Shown here piece by piece: positions 42,816-51,913 of a stretch of 64,000 bases of DNA (positions are counted from its first letter, which is position 1; each line of letters starts with the position of its first letter). Source of the DNA: Cupriavidus cauae (GTDB taxonomy: Bacteria > Pseudomonadota > Gammaproteobacteria > Burkholderiales > Burkholderiaceae). The stretch spans positions 1 to 64,000 of the forward strand of contig NZ_VWRN01000005.1 of the NCBI RefSeq assembly GCF_008632125.1, in the 5' to 3' direction. A program made the translations under genes and the position numbers. A model generated the notes under the pieces. That model was not told the origin of the DNA, ran no database searches, and saw only the letters and a list, made by a program, of their open reading frames with translations.

Positions 42816-44684
<1,869 letters not shown>

Positions 44685-44720
44685 TCGTGCTGTAGGGCGT
44701 ACTTTCGGCAGGCGATCCGG

Positions 44721-44792
44721 CAACCGATACGGCAACCGATACGGCAACCGATACGGCAACCGATACGGCAACCGATACGGCAACCGATACGG
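44721..44792. repeat. 12-bp tandem repeat CAACCGATACGG between edd and gntK
   Basis: Six perfect 12-bp copies in a row, flanked by degenerate copies (GGCGATCCGG on the left, CAGGCGACCCGC on the right). They lie 36 bp after the edd stop and about 160 bp before gntK, in what should be the transcribed spacer of one operon. Confidence 0.95.
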
Positions 44793-44951
44793 CAGGCGAC
44801 CCGCAACCCCGGACCGAACCCCGGACCGAATCAATCCTCAAGCCGGCCGGACCCCATGTCCGGCCTCGACCGCACGCGCGCGAACCCGCCGCCGCGCGGT
44901 CAGACCAACAAGGGCGGCTTCGACCGTCCGATCCTGATCGATGGAGCAGAC

Positions 44952-45461
44952 ATGATCTATATCCTGATGGGCGTCTCCGGCAGCGGCAAGACCACGGTCG
45001 GCTCGCTGCTGGCGCAGGCCCTGCACTGCGGCTTCCATGACGCCGACGAATTCCACAGCGCCGCCAACAAGGCCAAGATGGCCGCCGGCATTCCGCTGAC
45101 CGACGAGGACCGCTGGCCCTGGCTGGACGCGATGCGCGCCGCCATCGACCAGGCCCGCGCCGAGGGCCGCCCGCACGTCTTCACCTGCTCCGCGCTGCGC
45201 CAGATCTATCGCGACCGCCTGACGCCGCCCGACGGCGGGGTCAGCTTCATCTACCTGAAGGGCGATATCGACGTGCTGCGCACGCGCCTGGCCGGCCGCA
45301 GCGGGCATTTCTTCGATCCCAAGCTGCTGCAGAGCCAGCTCGATACGCTCGAGGAGCCGCGCGACGCGCTGGTGCTCGATATCCGCAAGCCCCCGGAGGA
45401 ACTGGTGCGCCAGATCCTGGCCGAGCGTCCGCCCGTCCGCGGCAGCCAGCCCGTGCACTGA
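44952..45461 (+). CDS. gntK: Gluconokinase
   Basis: Phosphorylates gluconate to 6-phosphogluconate. The 169-residue P-loop kinase has Walker A GVSGSGKT (7-14), DADEFHSAANKAKMAAGIPLTDEDRWPWL and FTCSALRQIYRD, all typical of GntK. The ATG at 44952 is chosen for the conserved MIYILMGVSGSG start and the upstream GGAG; an in-frame start at 44856 would add 32 residues. It feeds Edd encoded just upstream. Confidence 0.96.
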   Translation: MIYILMGVSGSGKTTVGSLLAQALHCGFHDADEFHSAANKAKMAAGIPLTDEDRWPWLDAMRAAIDQARAEGRPHVFTCSALRQIYRDRLTPPDGGVSFIYLKGDIDVLRTRLAGRSGHFFDPKLLQSQLDTLEEPRDALVLDIRKPPEELVRQILAERPPVRGSQPVH

Positions 45462-45671
45462 AATGGTGTGCGGGGCGGCGTCCCCGCGCCATTGCGTGGC
45501 GCCACGCCGCGCCAACACGCCGTTCGCGACCCGTCTTCCATTGGCAGGCATCTTGCTTGAATGTCTGCCAAGGCACCTGGCCTCCTTCTCGGGGGCGGCG
45601 GCCGGACGTATGCTGTAGAAGTCAACGATGCGCGGCGGCCGGTCGGGCGCCCGGTACTGGGGGAGGGCATC

Positions 45672-47144
45672 ATGGCGGCGGGGTTTTTCGATGAAATGCT
45701 GGACTGGCGCGGCGATGCGCCCCCGAACATCGCCGCCGGGCAGGCGTTGTCGCCGGACGCGATCCGGCCGCACTACCGCCAGTTCGCCGACTGGCTGGCG
45801 CGCCAGTCGGGCGCGACCATGGCCAACAAGCGTGCCGAGGCCGACCTGGTGTTCCGGCGCGTGGGCATCACCTTCGCCGTCTATGGCGACAAGGACGAGG
45901 CCAACAGCGGCACCGAGCGCACCATCCCCTTCGACGTGATTCCGCGCATCTTTCCGGCCGGCGAATGGGCGCTGCTGGAGAAGGGCCTGCGCCAGCGCGT
46001 CGCCGCGCTGAACCGCTTCATCCACGACATCTATCACGGCCAGGACATCATCCGCGCCGGCGTGATCCCGCCCGAGCAGGTCTACGACAACGCGCAATAC
46101 CGGCCGGAGATGCTGGGCATCGACGTGCCGCGCGACATCTATGCGCATGTCGCCGGCATCGACGTGGTGCGCGCGGGAGAGGGCGAGTTCTATGTGCTCG
46201 AGGACAATCTGCGGGTGCCTTCGGGGGTCTCCTACATGCTCGAGAACCGCAAGATGATGATGCGCTTGTTCCCCGAGCTGTTCGCGCGCAACCGCGTCGC
46301 GCCGGTGGCCCACTATCCCGACCTGCTGCTCGACATGCTGCGCAGCGTGTCGCCGCAGGGCGTGGCCGATCCGACCGTGGTGGTGCTGACGCCGGGCATG
46401 TACAACTCCGCCTACTTCGAGCACGCGTTCCTCGCGCAGCAGATGGGCATCGAACTGGTCGAGGGCAGCGACCTGTTCGTGCAGGACGACCATCTGTACA
46501 TGCGCACCACGCAGGGGCCGCAGCGCGTCGACGTGATCTACCGCCGCGTCGACGACGACTTTCTCGATCCGCTGGTGTTCCGGCCCGATTCGACGCTGGG
46601 CGCGGCCGGCCTGCTGGCGGTCTATCGCGCCGGCAATGTCACGGTCTGCAATGCGATCGGCACCGGCGTCGCCGACGACAAGTCGATCTATCCCTATGTG
46701 CCCGAGATGATCCGCTTCTATCTGGGCGAGGAACCGCTGCTGGCCAACGTGCCGACCTGGATGTGCCGGCGCCCGGACGACCTGCAGTACGTGCTCGACC
46801 ATATGGACGAGCTGGTGGTCAAGGAAACGCACGGGGCCGGCGGCTACGGCATGCTGGTCGGGCCGGCGGCGACGCGCGCCGAGATCGACGCCTTCCGCGA
46901 GGTGGTCAAGGCGCGGCCGGATCAGTACATCGCGCAGCCGACGCTGGCGCTGTCGACCTGTCCGACCTATGTGGAGGCCGGCATCGCGCCGCGCCATATC
47001 GATCTGCGGCCGTTCGTGCTGTCGGGCAAGGAGGTGCGCATGGTGCCGGGCGGGCTGACGCGCGTCGCGCTGCGCGAGGGGTCGCTGGTGGTCAATTCCT
47101 CGCAGGGCGGCGGCACCAAGGACACCTGGGTGCTGGAGCGCTGA
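45672..47144 (+). CDS. Circularly permuted ATP-grasp protein (DUF404/DUF407)
   Basis: A 490-residue circularly permuted ATP-grasp enzyme predicted to form peptide-like bonds. It includes RTIPFDVIPRIFPAGEWALLEKGLRQR, YVLEDNLRVPSGVSYMLENRKMMM, AVYRAGNVTVCNAIGTGVADDKSIYPYVPEM and ETHGAGGYGMLVGP. I chose the ATG at 45672 (MAAGFFDEMLDW); the frame is open to 45561 without conserved sequence. It heads the alpha-E / transglutaminase / Anbu set. Comparative genomics has linked these four families; the product is unknown. Confidence 0.92.
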   Translation: MAAGFFDEMLDWRGDAPPNIAAGQALSPDAIRPHYRQFADWLARQSGATMANKRAEADLVFRRVGITFAVYGDKDEANSGTERTIPFDVIPRIFPAGEWALLEKGLRQRVAALNRFIHDIYHGQDIIRAGVIPPEQVYDNAQYRPEMLGIDVPRDIYAHVAGIDVVRAGEGEFYVLEDNLRVPSGVSYMLENRKMMMRLFPELFARNRVAPVAHYPDLLLDMLRSVSPQGVADPTVVVLTPGMYNSAYFEHAFLAQQMGIELVEGSDLFVQDDHLYMRTTQGPQRVDVIYRRVDDDFLDPLVFRPDSTLGAAGLLAVYRAGNVTVCNAIGTGVADDKSIYPYVPEMIRFYLGEEPLLANVPTWMCRRPDDLQYVLDHMDELVVKETHGAGGYGMLVGPAATRAEIDAFREVVKARPDQYIAQPTLALSTCPTYVEAGIAPRHIDLRPFVLSGKEVRMVPGGLTRVALREGSLVVNSSQGGGTKDTWVLER

Positions 47145-47249
47145 GCCGACGAACCTTCGAGCCATCGAGCCTTCAAGCTTCAATCCTTCGCACCTTTCCG
47201 CAGCCATTGCCGACCCCGCGATCTTCCGACCGGACCACGGAGAGCCATC

Positions 47250-48203
47250 ATGCTGAGCCGCACCGCCGACCACCTGTTCTGGATGGCGCGCTACACCGAG
47301 CGCGCCGAGAACACCGCGCGCATGCTCGACGTCAATTACCAGACCTCGCTGCTGCCGCAATCGCTCGAGGTGGCCGAGCAGGGCTGGTGGGCGATGCTCG
47401 ATATCTCCGAGCTGACGCACGCGTTCGACCACAAGTACGGCCTGCTGTCGCGCGAGGACGTGATCGACTTCATGGTGCGCGACATGACCAACCCGTCGTC
47501 GATCATGAGCTGCCTGCGCGCGGCGCGCGAGAACGCGCGGGCCGTGCGCGGTTCGCTGACCACCGAGGTGTGGGAGACGCTGAACACCACCTGGCTGGAC
47601 GTGCAGCGGATGATCTCGGACGGCGTGCTGCGCGACGATCCGTCGCAGTTCTTCGAATGGGTCAAGTTCCGCTCGCACCTGGCGCGCGGCGTGCAGTTCG
47701 GCACCATGCTCAAGGACGACGCCTTCCACTTCATGCGGCTGGGCACCTTCCTGGAGCGCGCGGACAACACCGCGCGGATCCTCGACGTCAAGTTCCAGGC
47801 CACCGGCAGCGAGAACGGCGGCACCGAACGGACCGAGCAGGACTTCTATCACTGGGCCGCGGTGCTGCGCTCGGTGTCGGGCTTCGAGGTCTACCGCAAG
47901 ATCTACCGCACGGTGATCACACCGGTGCGCGTCGCCGAACTGCTGATCCTGCGGCCCGACATGCCGCGCTCGCTGGTGTCGAGCATGGACGAGGTGGTGG
48001 CGATCCTGGCGCTGGTGCGCAACCAGCAGTCGGCCGAGACCGAGCGGCAGGCTGGTAAACTGCATGCCGACCTCAAATACGCGCGCATCGACGACATCTT
48101 CGCGGTCGGACTGCACGCTTTCCTGACCAGCTTCCTGGAACGCATCGGCGATCTGGGCAGCGGCATCAGCCGGGACTTCCTGGTGCCGCCGCTGGCAGCC
48201 TGA
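47250..48203 (+). CDS. Alpha-E domain protein (DUF403)
   Basis: A 317-residue all-helical protein that starts MLSRTADHLFWMARYTERAENTARMLDV and repeats a similar ERADNTARILDVKF segment further on, suggesting two related helical halves. The family always travels with the circularly permuted ATP-grasp protein and is thought to act with it. It begins 105 bp after the ATP-grasp gene and is followed after 65 bp by the transglutaminase gene. Confidence 0.93.
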   Translation: MLSRTADHLFWMARYTERAENTARMLDVNYQTSLLPQSLEVAEQGWWAMLDISELTHAFDHKYGLLSREDVIDFMVRDMTNPSSIMSCLRAARENARAVRGSLTTEVWETLNTTWLDVQRMISDGVLRDDPSQFFEWVKFRSHLARGVQFGTMLKDDAFHFMRLGTFLERADNTARILDVKFQATGSENGGTERTEQDFYHWAAVLRSVSGFEVYRKIYRTVITPVRVAELLILRPDMPRSLVSSMDEVVAILALVRNQQSAETERQAGKLHADLKYARIDDIFAVGLHAFLTSFLERIGDLGSGISRDFLVPPLAA

Positions 48204-48268
48204 CCGATGGATTCGCCCACCGACGCGCCAGGCGTACCTGCCGGGCGGATCTGGCGGCGCAGCGCAAC

Positions 48269-49093
48269 ATGACCGTGAAATACCAGATCCACCATCGCAC
48301 CGTTTACCGCTATGCCGAGCCGGTGATCCGCAGCGTTCACGAGCTGCGGCTGGCGCCGCGCTCCGGCCCGCTGCAGCGCGTGCACCAATGGCAGCTGTCG
48401 GTGCCGGGCAATCTGTCCGAGGCGCTCGACGGCTTCGGCAATATCGTCCATCAGTTCACGCTGGCGCGGCCGGCCGACACCATCACAATCGCCGCCAGCG
48501 GCGAAGTCGAGATCACGCCGGCCTCCGATGCCGACGGCTGCTTCAGCGACGCGCCGCCGCCGGGCGAGGCGCGTGTGTCGCCGCTGTACTTCCGCAGCGG
48601 CACGCCGCTGACCAGCGCGCCCGACGAACTGAGGACGTTCGCCGCCCCGTATCTGGCCGCCGGCCATGATCCCGCCGCGCTGCTGGCGCTGGCCCAGGGC
48701 ATCGGCGAGCGCGTGCGCTACCAGCCCAATGCCACCGATGTCGGCACCAGCGCCGCCGAGGCCTTCGCGCTGGGCGCGGGCGTGTGCCAGGACCAGGCGC
48801 AGGTGATGGTGGCCGCCTGCCGCGCCTTCGGCATTCCGGCGCGCTATGTCAGCGGCTATTTCCACGACCCCGCGGCCACCGAGCTGGCCAGCCACGCCTG
48901 GGCCGACCTGTGTGTCGATACCGGGCGGGAGCGCTGGTGCAGCATCGACGTGACGCACGGCTGCTTCACCGATACCCGCCATATCCGCCTCGCGGTGGGG
49001 CGCGACTACCGCTCGGCGGCGCCGATCCGCGGCGTGCGCGAGGGCGGCGGCACCGAATCGCTGTCGGTGCAGATCCTGATCGAGCCGGCCTGA
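48269..49093 (+). CDS. Transglutaminase-like cysteine peptidase family protein
   Basis: A 274-residue protein with an N-terminal beta-rich domain (YQIHHRTVYRYAEPV) and a transglutaminase-like domain with the triad Cys173 (GAGVCQDQAQ), His209 (ASHAWADLCV) and Asp227 (WCSIDVTHG). No signal peptide, so it works in the cytosol. Such proteins may cut or make isopeptide bonds. Third gene of the ATP-grasp set; an immediate downstream 10-bp repeat separates it from the Anbu gene. Confidence 0.93.
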   Translation: MTVKYQIHHRTVYRYAEPVIRSVHELRLAPRSGPLQRVHQWQLSVPGNLSEALDGFGNIVHQFTLARPADTITIAASGEVEITPASDADGCFSDAPPPGEARVSPLYFRSGTPLTSAPDELRTFAAPYLAAGHDPAALLALAQGIGERVRYQPNATDVGTSAAEAFALGAGVCQDQAQVMVAACRAFGIPARYVSGYFHDPAATELASHAWADLCVDTGRERWCSIDVTHGCFTDTRHIRLAVGRDYRSAAPIRGVREGGGTESLSVQILIEPA

Positions 49094-49151
49094 GTCCTGC
49101 ATTGCGCCGCAGCGTGCCGCTACGTGCGGCTACGTGTCGCCGTGGGGCCCC

Positions 49152-49191
49152 GGGTCGCCACGGGTCGCCACGGCTCGCCACGGCTCGCTGT
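49152..49191. repeat. 10-bp tandem repeat GGGTCGCCAC
   Basis: Four units: GGGTCGCCAC twice, GGCTCGCCAC and GGCTCGCTGT, in the spacer between the transglutaminase-like gene and the Anbu gene. Confidence 0.8.
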
Positions 49192-49235
49192 GGGGCCGAT
49201 AAGGGGCCGTGACAGGGGACGCCCGGCGAGGGCGC

Positions 49236-49241
49236 TAGAAT
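49236..49241 (+). promoter_or_regulatory. Candidate -10 ahead of the Anbu gene (TAGAAT)
   Basis: TAGAAT lies 58 bp before the Anbu start, after the 10-bp repeat. It suggests that Anbu can be transcribed separately from the three genes before it. No clear -35 was seen. Confidence 0.35.
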
Positions 49242-49299
49242 GCCGGGATGCTCCCCGCGCGTTCCGCCGCGCGCCATGTCACCACAATAAGACAACACC

Positions 49300-50121
49300 A
49301 TGACGTACTGTGTAGCCATGCGGCTCGATGCCGGCCTGGTATTCCTGTCCGACTCGCGCACCAATGCGGGCGTCGACGCGATCTCGACGGCCCGCAAGAT
49401 GACGGTGTTCGAGGAGCCCGGCGACCGCGTCATGGTGCTGATGACCGCCGGCAATCTCGCCATCAGCCAGTCGATCCGCCAGATCCTGATGGAAAGCCGC
49501 GACAGCAAACGCTCGCTGTGGACCGCGCGCGATATGTTCGAGGCCGCCTCGATCGTCGGCGACGCAGTGCGCCAGGTGCACCGCCGCGATGCCGATGCGC
49601 TGCGCGATGCCGGCATCGAGTTCAACGTCAGCCTGATCTTCGGCGGCCAGATCGGCCGCGAGCGGGTGCGGTTGTTCAACGTCTATGCGGCCGGCAATTT
49701 CGTCGAGGCGACGCCGGAGAACTGCTACTTCCAGATTGGCGAGGCCAAGTACGGCAAGCCGATCATCGACCGCGTGGTGCATCCCTCGTTGCCGCTGGCC
49801 GAAGGGGCCAAGTGCGCGCTGATCTCGATGGACTCGACGCTCAAGTCCAATATCTCGGTGGGCCTGCCGCTGGACCTGCTGGTCTACGAAGCCGATTCGC
49901 TGCACGTCACGCGCTTTGCCACCATCGACGACCGCAATCCGTATTTCTGCATGATCCGCGAGACCTGGGGCCAGCGCCTGCGCCAGGTGTTCGGCGAGAT
50001 CGACAACCCGGAATGGGACGCCGCCGCGCCGGCCCAACATCCGCTGACGCGGCAGGGCGAGGGCGACCGCTGGGGACAGCCGGTGCGGGCCCGGCGCGAG
50101 CGTCCGCGCGAACCGCAGTGA
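49300..50121 (+). CDS. Anbu (ancestral beta-subunit) proteasome-like peptidase
   Basis: A 273-residue relative of proteasome beta subunits and HslV. After removal of Met1 the N-terminus is Thr (TYCVAMRLDAGLVFLSDSRTNAGVD), the expected nucleophile, with a conserved Lys at position 33 of the full product (STARKMTVF) and LMTAGNLAISQS after it. The last 40 residues form a charged Arg/Pro/Gln tail. Anbu proteins are known to occur with the ATP-grasp, alpha-E and transglutaminase genes found here. The natural substrate is not known. Confidence 0.93.
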   Translation: MTYCVAMRLDAGLVFLSDSRTNAGVDAISTARKMTVFEEPGDRVMVLMTAGNLAISQSIRQILMESRDSKRSLWTARDMFEAASIVGDAVRQVHRRDADALRDAGIEFNVSLIFGGQIGRERVRLFNVYAAGNFVEATPENCYFQIGEAKYGKPIIDRVVHPSLPLAEGAKCALISMDSTLKSNISVGLPLDLLVYEADSLHVTRFATIDDRNPYFCMIRETWGQRLRQVFGEIDNPEWDAAAPAQHPLTRQGEGDRWGQPVRARRERPREPQ

Positions 50122-50225
50122 ACGGGGCGGCGAGGGCTCGCGCGAGGCCGGGTCCGCCGCCGAAACGGCACGCGAGCGGACAGTCCGGCACGCCGATTCC
50201 GCCCGTCCATCCGGCCTCGCTCATG

Positions 50226-51913
<1,688 letters not shown>

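Follow-up and report, generated by a model that had tools for sequence, protein, structure and literature searches.

An intact Anbu operon in Cupriavidus cauae: gene linkage, a conserved sigma-54-like site and an internal duplication in its alpha-E protein

The window analysed here is a stretch of 64,000 nucleotides (nt) of Cupriavidus cauae DNA (contig NZ_VWRN01000005.1, positions 1 to 64,000 of the forward strand), and at 45672..50121 it carries a cluster of genes for an ATP-grasp enzyme, an alpha-E protein, a transglutaminase-like protein and the proteasome-like Anbu. An earlier interpretation made from the letters alone, below called the sequence-only reading, had placed these four genes in this order on one strand, as is borne out by four consecutive + strand open reading frames (ORFs), each matched to its family. 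The cluster is an intact member of the published, functionally unsolved Anbu operon. Such an operon was reportedly predicted by Iyer et al. 2009, its product being a peptide-like tag or metabolite. The features to which the text refers are the following, protein lengths being in amino acids (aa) and E denoting an expect value.

45541..45557, + strand: sigma-54 (-24/-12) promoter-like site TTGGCAGGCATCTTGCT, before the ATP-grasp gene (from genus conservation)
45609..45614, + strand: possible sigma-70 -10 element, TATGCT, downstream of the sigma-54-like site (TATGCT in 30 of 35 genus sequences)
45672..47144, + strand: ATP-grasp protein, circularly permuted (CP_ATPgrasp_2/1), 490 aa (from Pfam; solved relative 3n6x)
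47250..48203, + strand: alpha-E protein (PF04168), 317 aa (Pfam E 1.8e-100)
47262..47672, + strand: alpha-E repeat 1 (aa 5-141), with the E17-R18 motif (hhalign of halves, E 4.9e-19)
47718..48143, + strand: alpha-E repeat 2 (aa 157-298), with the E169-R170 motif (same hhalign comparison)
48269..49093, + strand: transglutaminase-like protein, 274 aa, with Cys173/His209/Asp227 (PF08379 and PF01841; triad invariant in 18 of 18)
49236..49241, + strand: -10-like TAGAAT before Anbu (GCTA[GA]AAT in 34 of 34 genus sequences)
49300..50121, + strand: Anbu, a proteasome-like N-terminal nucleophile (Ntn) hydrolase, 273 aa, Thr exposed after Met removal (from solved Anbu chains)

The ATP-grasp product matches CP_ATPgrasp_2 (E 1e-170) and CP_ATPgrasp_1 (E 9e-157) in Pfam and the solved 3n6x over almost its full length (E 6e-218), and the two Pfam domains of the transglutaminase-like product are Bact_transglu_N (PF08379) and Transglut_core (PF01841). 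Anbu, which we take to be COG3484, has no Pfam match at E 1e-3, the Proteasome family PF00227 reaching E 0.0027, below the family cut-off; it aligns with the solved Anbu chains 5loy, 5nyw, 5nyj, 5nyf and 5lox at E 9e-90 to 1e-60, the alignment to 5loy leaving about 33 residues at its C-terminus uncovered. None of the four proteins has a match in NCBIfam at E 1e-3.

The claim that all visible catalytic residues are intact stands for two of the enzymes. Judged by alignment, Cys173, His209 and Asp227 of the transglutaminase-like protein are invariant in 18 of 18 sequences, the window's copy included. The N-terminal Thr ascribed to Anbu is likewise to be expected from its MTYC start with no propeptide, and the residues invariant in 16 of 16 aligned Anbu sequences are Thr2 (Thr1 after Met removal), Asp18, Arg20, Lys33, Gly51 and Ser179; for Thr1, Asp17 and Lys32/33 the roles in Anbu are those given in passages of PMC6376114 and PMC5666114. 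In the ATP-grasp protein more than 100 columns are invariant in 23 of 23 aligned sequences, which is conservation at the level of the family rather than of assigned catalytic residues. For its initiation codon 45672 appears likelier than the ATG at 45561 of a longer ORF, since that ATG follows the sigma-54-like site by only 3 nt, ahead of where any transcript from the site would begin, and since a purine-rich stretch precedes 45672 and the start there aligns in relatives. With Anbu, recoding of copies having in-frame stops was considered and rejected, as nine of the ten fetched have an ordinary terminal codon and give no sign of it; only L311 (genome G203) has an internal one, a single stop codon at residue 57.

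Of 35 genomes searched in the same genus, 34 have alpha-E, and the sole one without it is 54% complete. The ATP-grasp, alpha-E and transglutaminase genes are in order in all 34 loci, with Anbu in 33, a kinase gene upstream in 34 and pyrG downstream within the fetched stretch in 33, and this retention of order and flanking genes argues that the cluster is not a product of chance. One locus (L072, genome G017) has neither Anbu nor pyrG within about 3 kilobases (kb) past the transglutaminase gene. Among the matches listed, the nearest named relatives are Cupriavidus records, including C. gilardii CCUG 38401 with 98% ATP-grasp identity.

A wider sample comprised 80 loci, 40 from a list for the order and 40 from one for the phylum, mostly one per genus; strong matches on long contigs were favoured, so the sample is non-random, and L102 is of the same genus, leaving 79 from outside it. 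In all 80 the ATP-grasp gene is ahead of alpha-E on the same strand, with a gap of about 765 nt in L151, which is dropped by the 700-nt gap rule used here for contiguous same-strand runs. By that rule the exact four-gene order forms a contiguous run in 32 of the 80, ATP-grasp and alpha-E alone in 15, these two with the transglutaminase gene and without Anbu in 11, and ATP-grasp, alpha-E, Anbu and a large transglutaminase in 10 (in L128, the one scanned, it is fused to DUF2126, a putative amidoligase), with other arrangements in 12. Anbu lies within the run in 48 loci, and 53 have it somewhere in the region. As to presence rather than order, among 250 genomes of the order 145 have alpha-E and 136 have Anbu, with 132 having both, four Anbu only, 13 alpha-E only and 101 neither. 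The genes are co-inherited across these genomes, as the 132 with both indicate; the genomes are mutually related, and the Fisher value for the co-occurrence is not a true probability. The view of the four families as one linked module, held in the sequence-only reading, is upheld by the wider gene-order runs together with this co-occurrence. The neighbours in the 80 loci were also searched for a fifth, conserved pathway gene, and this idea was rejected, no other family being in more than eight of the loci: a ComEC-like family is in eight, an unnamed family in seven, and aldehyde dehydrogenase and another family without a Pfam match are in five each (neighbours within about 8 kb were clustered by BLAST at E 1e-15 and 60% coverage, which diverged partners could escape).

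The sigma-54-like site, absent from the sequence-only reading, ends 115 nt before the ATP-grasp start. Across the genus 34 of 35 leaders contain TGGCA-N6-TTGC[AT] (the window's and 34 more were compared, L091 being without it); shuffling gives a mean of 0.01, and the reverse strand has 0. Its distance from the start codon ranges from 92 to 252 nt and the leaders otherwise align poorly, for which reasons the match exceeds what recent descent would give. The C. cauae genome (5.75 Mb in 74 contigs, with a single alpha-E match) has 11 matches to YTGGCAN6TTGCW and 0 in a backward-read control. Six of the other ten matches have an ORF of at least 100 aa starting within 450 nt downstream, three of which, as read from their translations without a family search, are an NtrC-like regulator, an acetoin-dehydrogenase-like enzyme and an ATP-binding cassette (ABC)-transporter binding protein; each of the ten is spanned by an ORF on one or the other strand, many of these surely spurious in DNA rich in G and C. 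Sigma-54 is encoded in the same genome, so that what a sigma-54 regulon would have by sequence, a conserved -24/-12 element before the first gene together with a sigma-54 gene, is present.

In the wider loci a site scoring at least 12/13 precedes the ATP-grasp gene in 20 of 80 (19 without L102), versus 6 of 933 control regions, one of 80 on the reverse strand and 0.33% of shuffles; at a threshold of at least 11/13 the corresponding figures are 27 of 80, 28 of 933, one of 80 and 2.3%, the controls being upstream regions of other ORFs of at least 250 aa, some of them spurious. Among named records, Cupriavidus reaches at least 12/13 in 18 of 18, and at least 11/13 is reached in Paraburkholderia by 10 of 13, in Caballeronia by 9 of 11, in Trinickia by 1 of 3 and in unlabelled records by 7 of 29. 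We infer that the site may serve transcription here. Between it and the ATP-grasp start, TTGC-spacer-TATGCT occurs in 27 of 35 leaders, the window keeping TATGCT only, and it could be a basal sigma-70 promoter in the relatives; a sigma-70 scan of 44600-50400 gave no consensus promoter and no terminator.

A second promoter-like site concerns Anbu, for which a promoter of its own (TAGAAT at 49236) had been suggested. Conservation favours the suggestion, GCTA[GA]AAT being present in all 34 genus sequences, the window's and those of 33 relatives (against a mean of 0.04 in shuffled sequence), at a distance of 30 to 84 nt from the Anbu start, with no recognisable -35 element ahead of it. If the site is active, there would be a separate start for Anbu just after GCTAGAAT. 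The 206-nt gap in which it lies also contains a 10-base repeat of about four copies at 49147-49188.

Published regulation of related clusters, here from passages of the papers concerned, is pertinent to both sites. In B. cenocepacia a cluster of DUF404/407, DUF403 and transglutaminase-domain genes is 6.0- to 9.4-fold down in an ntrC mutant, and the majority of NtrC-dependent genes are sigma-54-dependent too (PMC5491218). The genes PP_2685-2688 of P. putida are up under nitrogen limitation (PMC3325844, PMC7801951), and a survey of sigma-54 regulons includes COG3484 (PMC12316311). With nitrogen control of such operons already indicated in this way, what is new is limited to the Cupriavidus sigma-54-like site and its conservation. 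Independent expression of the genes, which according to the sequence-only reading would refute a shared role, receives a divided answer from P. putida under nitrogen limitation: in wild type, RNA-seq gave 1.12-fold for Anbu versus 11.0- to 14.7-fold for the other three genes (PMC7801951), whereas an earlier study had Anbu at 11.1-fold with neighbours at 6.6 and 7.1 (PMC3325844). Since the two studies disagree, the idea that Anbu is cleanly uncoupled from nitrogen control in that species was dropped.

The first of those P. putida results would suit an arrangement of two loosely coupled units, a nitrogen-controlled core of ATP-grasp, alpha-E and transglutaminase genes and an Anbu with its own promoter and a separate role, the adjacency being due more to shared inheritance than to one pathway. 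The genus-wide GCTA[GA]AAT before Anbu (34 of 34) and the wider runs without Anbu, 11 of three genes and 15 of ATP-grasp and alpha-E only, also fit such an arrangement, which we nevertheless consider unlikely given the co-induction of Anbu in the other P. putida study and the presence of alpha-E in 132 of the 136 genomes with Anbu, in some of which (e.g. G168 and G205) the two genes are on different contigs.

The alpha-E protein is, on profile comparison, an old internal duplication. Its halves (1-150 and 151-317) align by hhalign over 137 columns with a probability of 99.1 at E 4.9e-19, the 15 other comparisons, among them reversed profiles and halves of unrelated proteins, giving E 0.13-0.77. 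The residues invariant in 25 of 25 aligned sequences are E17, R18 and R24, and E169, R170, D172, R176 and D179, with one E-R motif per half. No prior description of the duplication was found in the literature searched, which did not cover Iyer et al. 2009, and it may be known. Searches by sequence or profile gave no credible solved relative of alpha-E, so that for the only one of the four proteins in this position the duplication is a first handle. Its sole profile match, cullin-4B (E 0.023), was taken as chance, and kinship with squalene/phytoene synthases, an idea that came from motif spacing, was rejected at hhalign E 0.7 versus 0.77 for the reversed control (24 of the 30 fetched PF00494 proteins being used). 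Ten of the 80 wider loci have an ATP-grasp/alpha-E fusion of 809-878 aa near the unfused pair (L123, L126, L133, L136, L139, L167, L173, L176, L179 and L180), and these fused chains suggest that ATP-grasp and alpha-E act together.

From the above a reading can be proposed that we hold at slightly less than even confidence: an ATP-dependent amide-ligase module, linked to nitrogen stress, in which two further enzymes cleave or transfer amides. In nitrogen shortage, sigma-54 RNA polymerase, helped by an activator that is probably NtrC, would transcribe the ATP-grasp, alpha-E and transglutaminase genes from the site at 45541, and Anbu may additionally be driven by its own promoter-like site. ATP-grasp with alpha-E would use ATP to activate a carboxylate as an acyl phosphate and would join it to an amine, giving an amide- or peptide-like product, after which the transglutaminase-like enzyme, through its Cys, and the Anbu assembly, through its Thr, would move, trim or hydrolyse the amide, with nitrogen recycled or a tag removed as the presumed outcome. 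The ligase step is proposed because the Yersinia homologue, in the published passages, frees phosphate from ATP, a result that does not distinguish ligation from hydrolysis and so does not prove the former. The Anbu step is proposed from inhibitor binding, P. aeruginosa Anbu binding epoxomicin and MG132 and C. hutchinsonii Anbu not doing so (PMC5666114), and it has to be set against the peptidase results given below. Recycling of nitrogen is suggested by the regulation and by the correlation, in metagenomes, of these domains with urea-metabolism domains (PMC3597751). Of what the sequence-only reading had envisaged for the cluster, the linked module, the conserved residues and the Anbu promoter-like site are supported; a peptide-like tag or metabolite as product is a prediction, on which the published tests are mixed.

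Several observations weigh against the amide-ligase reading, some of them bearing on its regulation. Sixty of the 80 wider loci score under 12/13 for the sigma-54-like site, none of three Ralstonia records reaches 11/13, and six of the 20 high-scoring sites are no more than 20 nt from the ATP-grasp start, or just beyond it, where that start is a projection from the window's protein. NtrC-type dyads upstream are not clearly enriched in the 35 leaders (at least 9/12 in 8, with 5.9 expected, and at least 10/12 in 3, with 0.6 expected), so NtrC as activator is what we infer. In a P. putida rpoN mutant PP_2686-2688 are induced 14.2-, 16.0- and 19.6-fold, versus 12.6, 11.0 and 14.7 in wild type; urea-transporter genes assigned to NtrB/NtrC likewise stay induced in that mutant (both in passages of PMC7801951), so that either the mutant is uninformative or other control exists. 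Other points concern the enzymes: 13 of the 250 genomes have alpha-E and no Anbu match, ATP-grasp was, in the passages, unstimulated by glutamine or glutamate, and peptidase activity of Anbu was not detected in those of PMC5666114 and PMC6376114.

A somewhat unlikely alternative, and one to which the inhibitor binding is also relevant, is that Anbu works as a primitive proteasome, degrading proteins during starvation, with its three partners tagging or preparing substrates or regulating it and making no small peptide. The authors of PMC5666114, in the passages concerned, view a peptide-synthesis role for Anbu as less likely and favour protein degradation, from a ring of many identical sites as well as from the binding of inhibitors. 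Conservation of Thr1, Asp and Lys in Anbu would fit, as would protein recycling under nitrogen limitation, the condition of induction. However, the substrates tried were not cleaved, no unfoldase is among the recurrent neighbours in the 80 loci, pull-downs gave no specific interaction between the operon's proteins (PMC6376114), and Anbu does not stimulate ATP-grasp. The failure to detect peptidase activity can also be taken in another direction, with Anbu and the transglutaminase-like protein as ligases or transpeptidases that build rather than cleave the product. Connectase, a proteasome homologue of the same family, ligates proteins (PMC8665760, according to which Anbu had several solved structures and an unknown function as of 2021); the passages of the cited papers contain no ligation assay of Anbu, and we view this direction as highly improbable.

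Returning to the amide-ligase reading, a more specific form of it, which we think quite unlikely, would make alpha-E a charged enzyme or carrier, duplicated and with two sites, that constitutes one ligase with ATP-grasp; under nitrogen starvation the ligase would amidate an amine or peptide and so activate it for nitrogen scavenging, and the transglutaminase-like protein and Anbu would release the nitrogen. The gamma-glutamylation routes of amine catabolism are a functional parallel for such amidation. If this form were true, Anbu would be an amide hydrolase of a catabolic pathway and not a proteasome. From a practical perspective, the conserved sigma-54-like site suggests nitrogen limitation as the condition for seeking the product in Cupriavidus; which genes may be uncoupled is indicated by the two promoter-like sites.

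As to the surroundings, upstream of the ATP-grasp gene there are a dehydratase gene of the ilvD/edd families and a kinase gene whose best Pfam match is SKI, which we take to be edd and a gluconokinase gene, respectively; the downstream neighbour of the cluster, also by Pfam, is pyrG. Between the dehydratase and kinase genes, at 44713-44794, is a 12-base tandem repeat, CGATACGGCAAC, of about 6.8 copies with 98% matches.

Of known systems, the closest is the Anbu operon as presented in passages on Y. bercovieri (PMC6376114) and P. aeruginosa (PMC5666114), with which the window shares the four families, their order, the single strand and the retained residues. Nothing basic differs, though the window has the sigma-54-like site, the 206-nt gap with a -10-like site and the C-terminal extension of Anbu. 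The NtrC-dependent B. cenocepacia cluster I35_5080-83 (passages of PMC5491218) is like the window in its DUF404/407 (ATP-grasp), DUF403 (alpha-E) and transglutaminase-like domains, and unlike it in having a second, large transglutaminase-domain gene, probably of the transglutaminase-DUF2126 type seen in L128, and no Anbu named in those passages. In P. putida PP_2685-2688 a transglutaminase-domain gene is beside a 20S proteasome beta-like gene, and the four genes are assigned to NtrB/NtrC (passages of PMC7801951 and PMC3325844); PP_2687 and PP_2688, labelled hypothetical in the former, would be the alpha-E and ATP-grasp genes. To this published set the present analysis adds regulatory anatomy, the alpha-E duplication as judged from profiles, and a quantified linkage of the genes.

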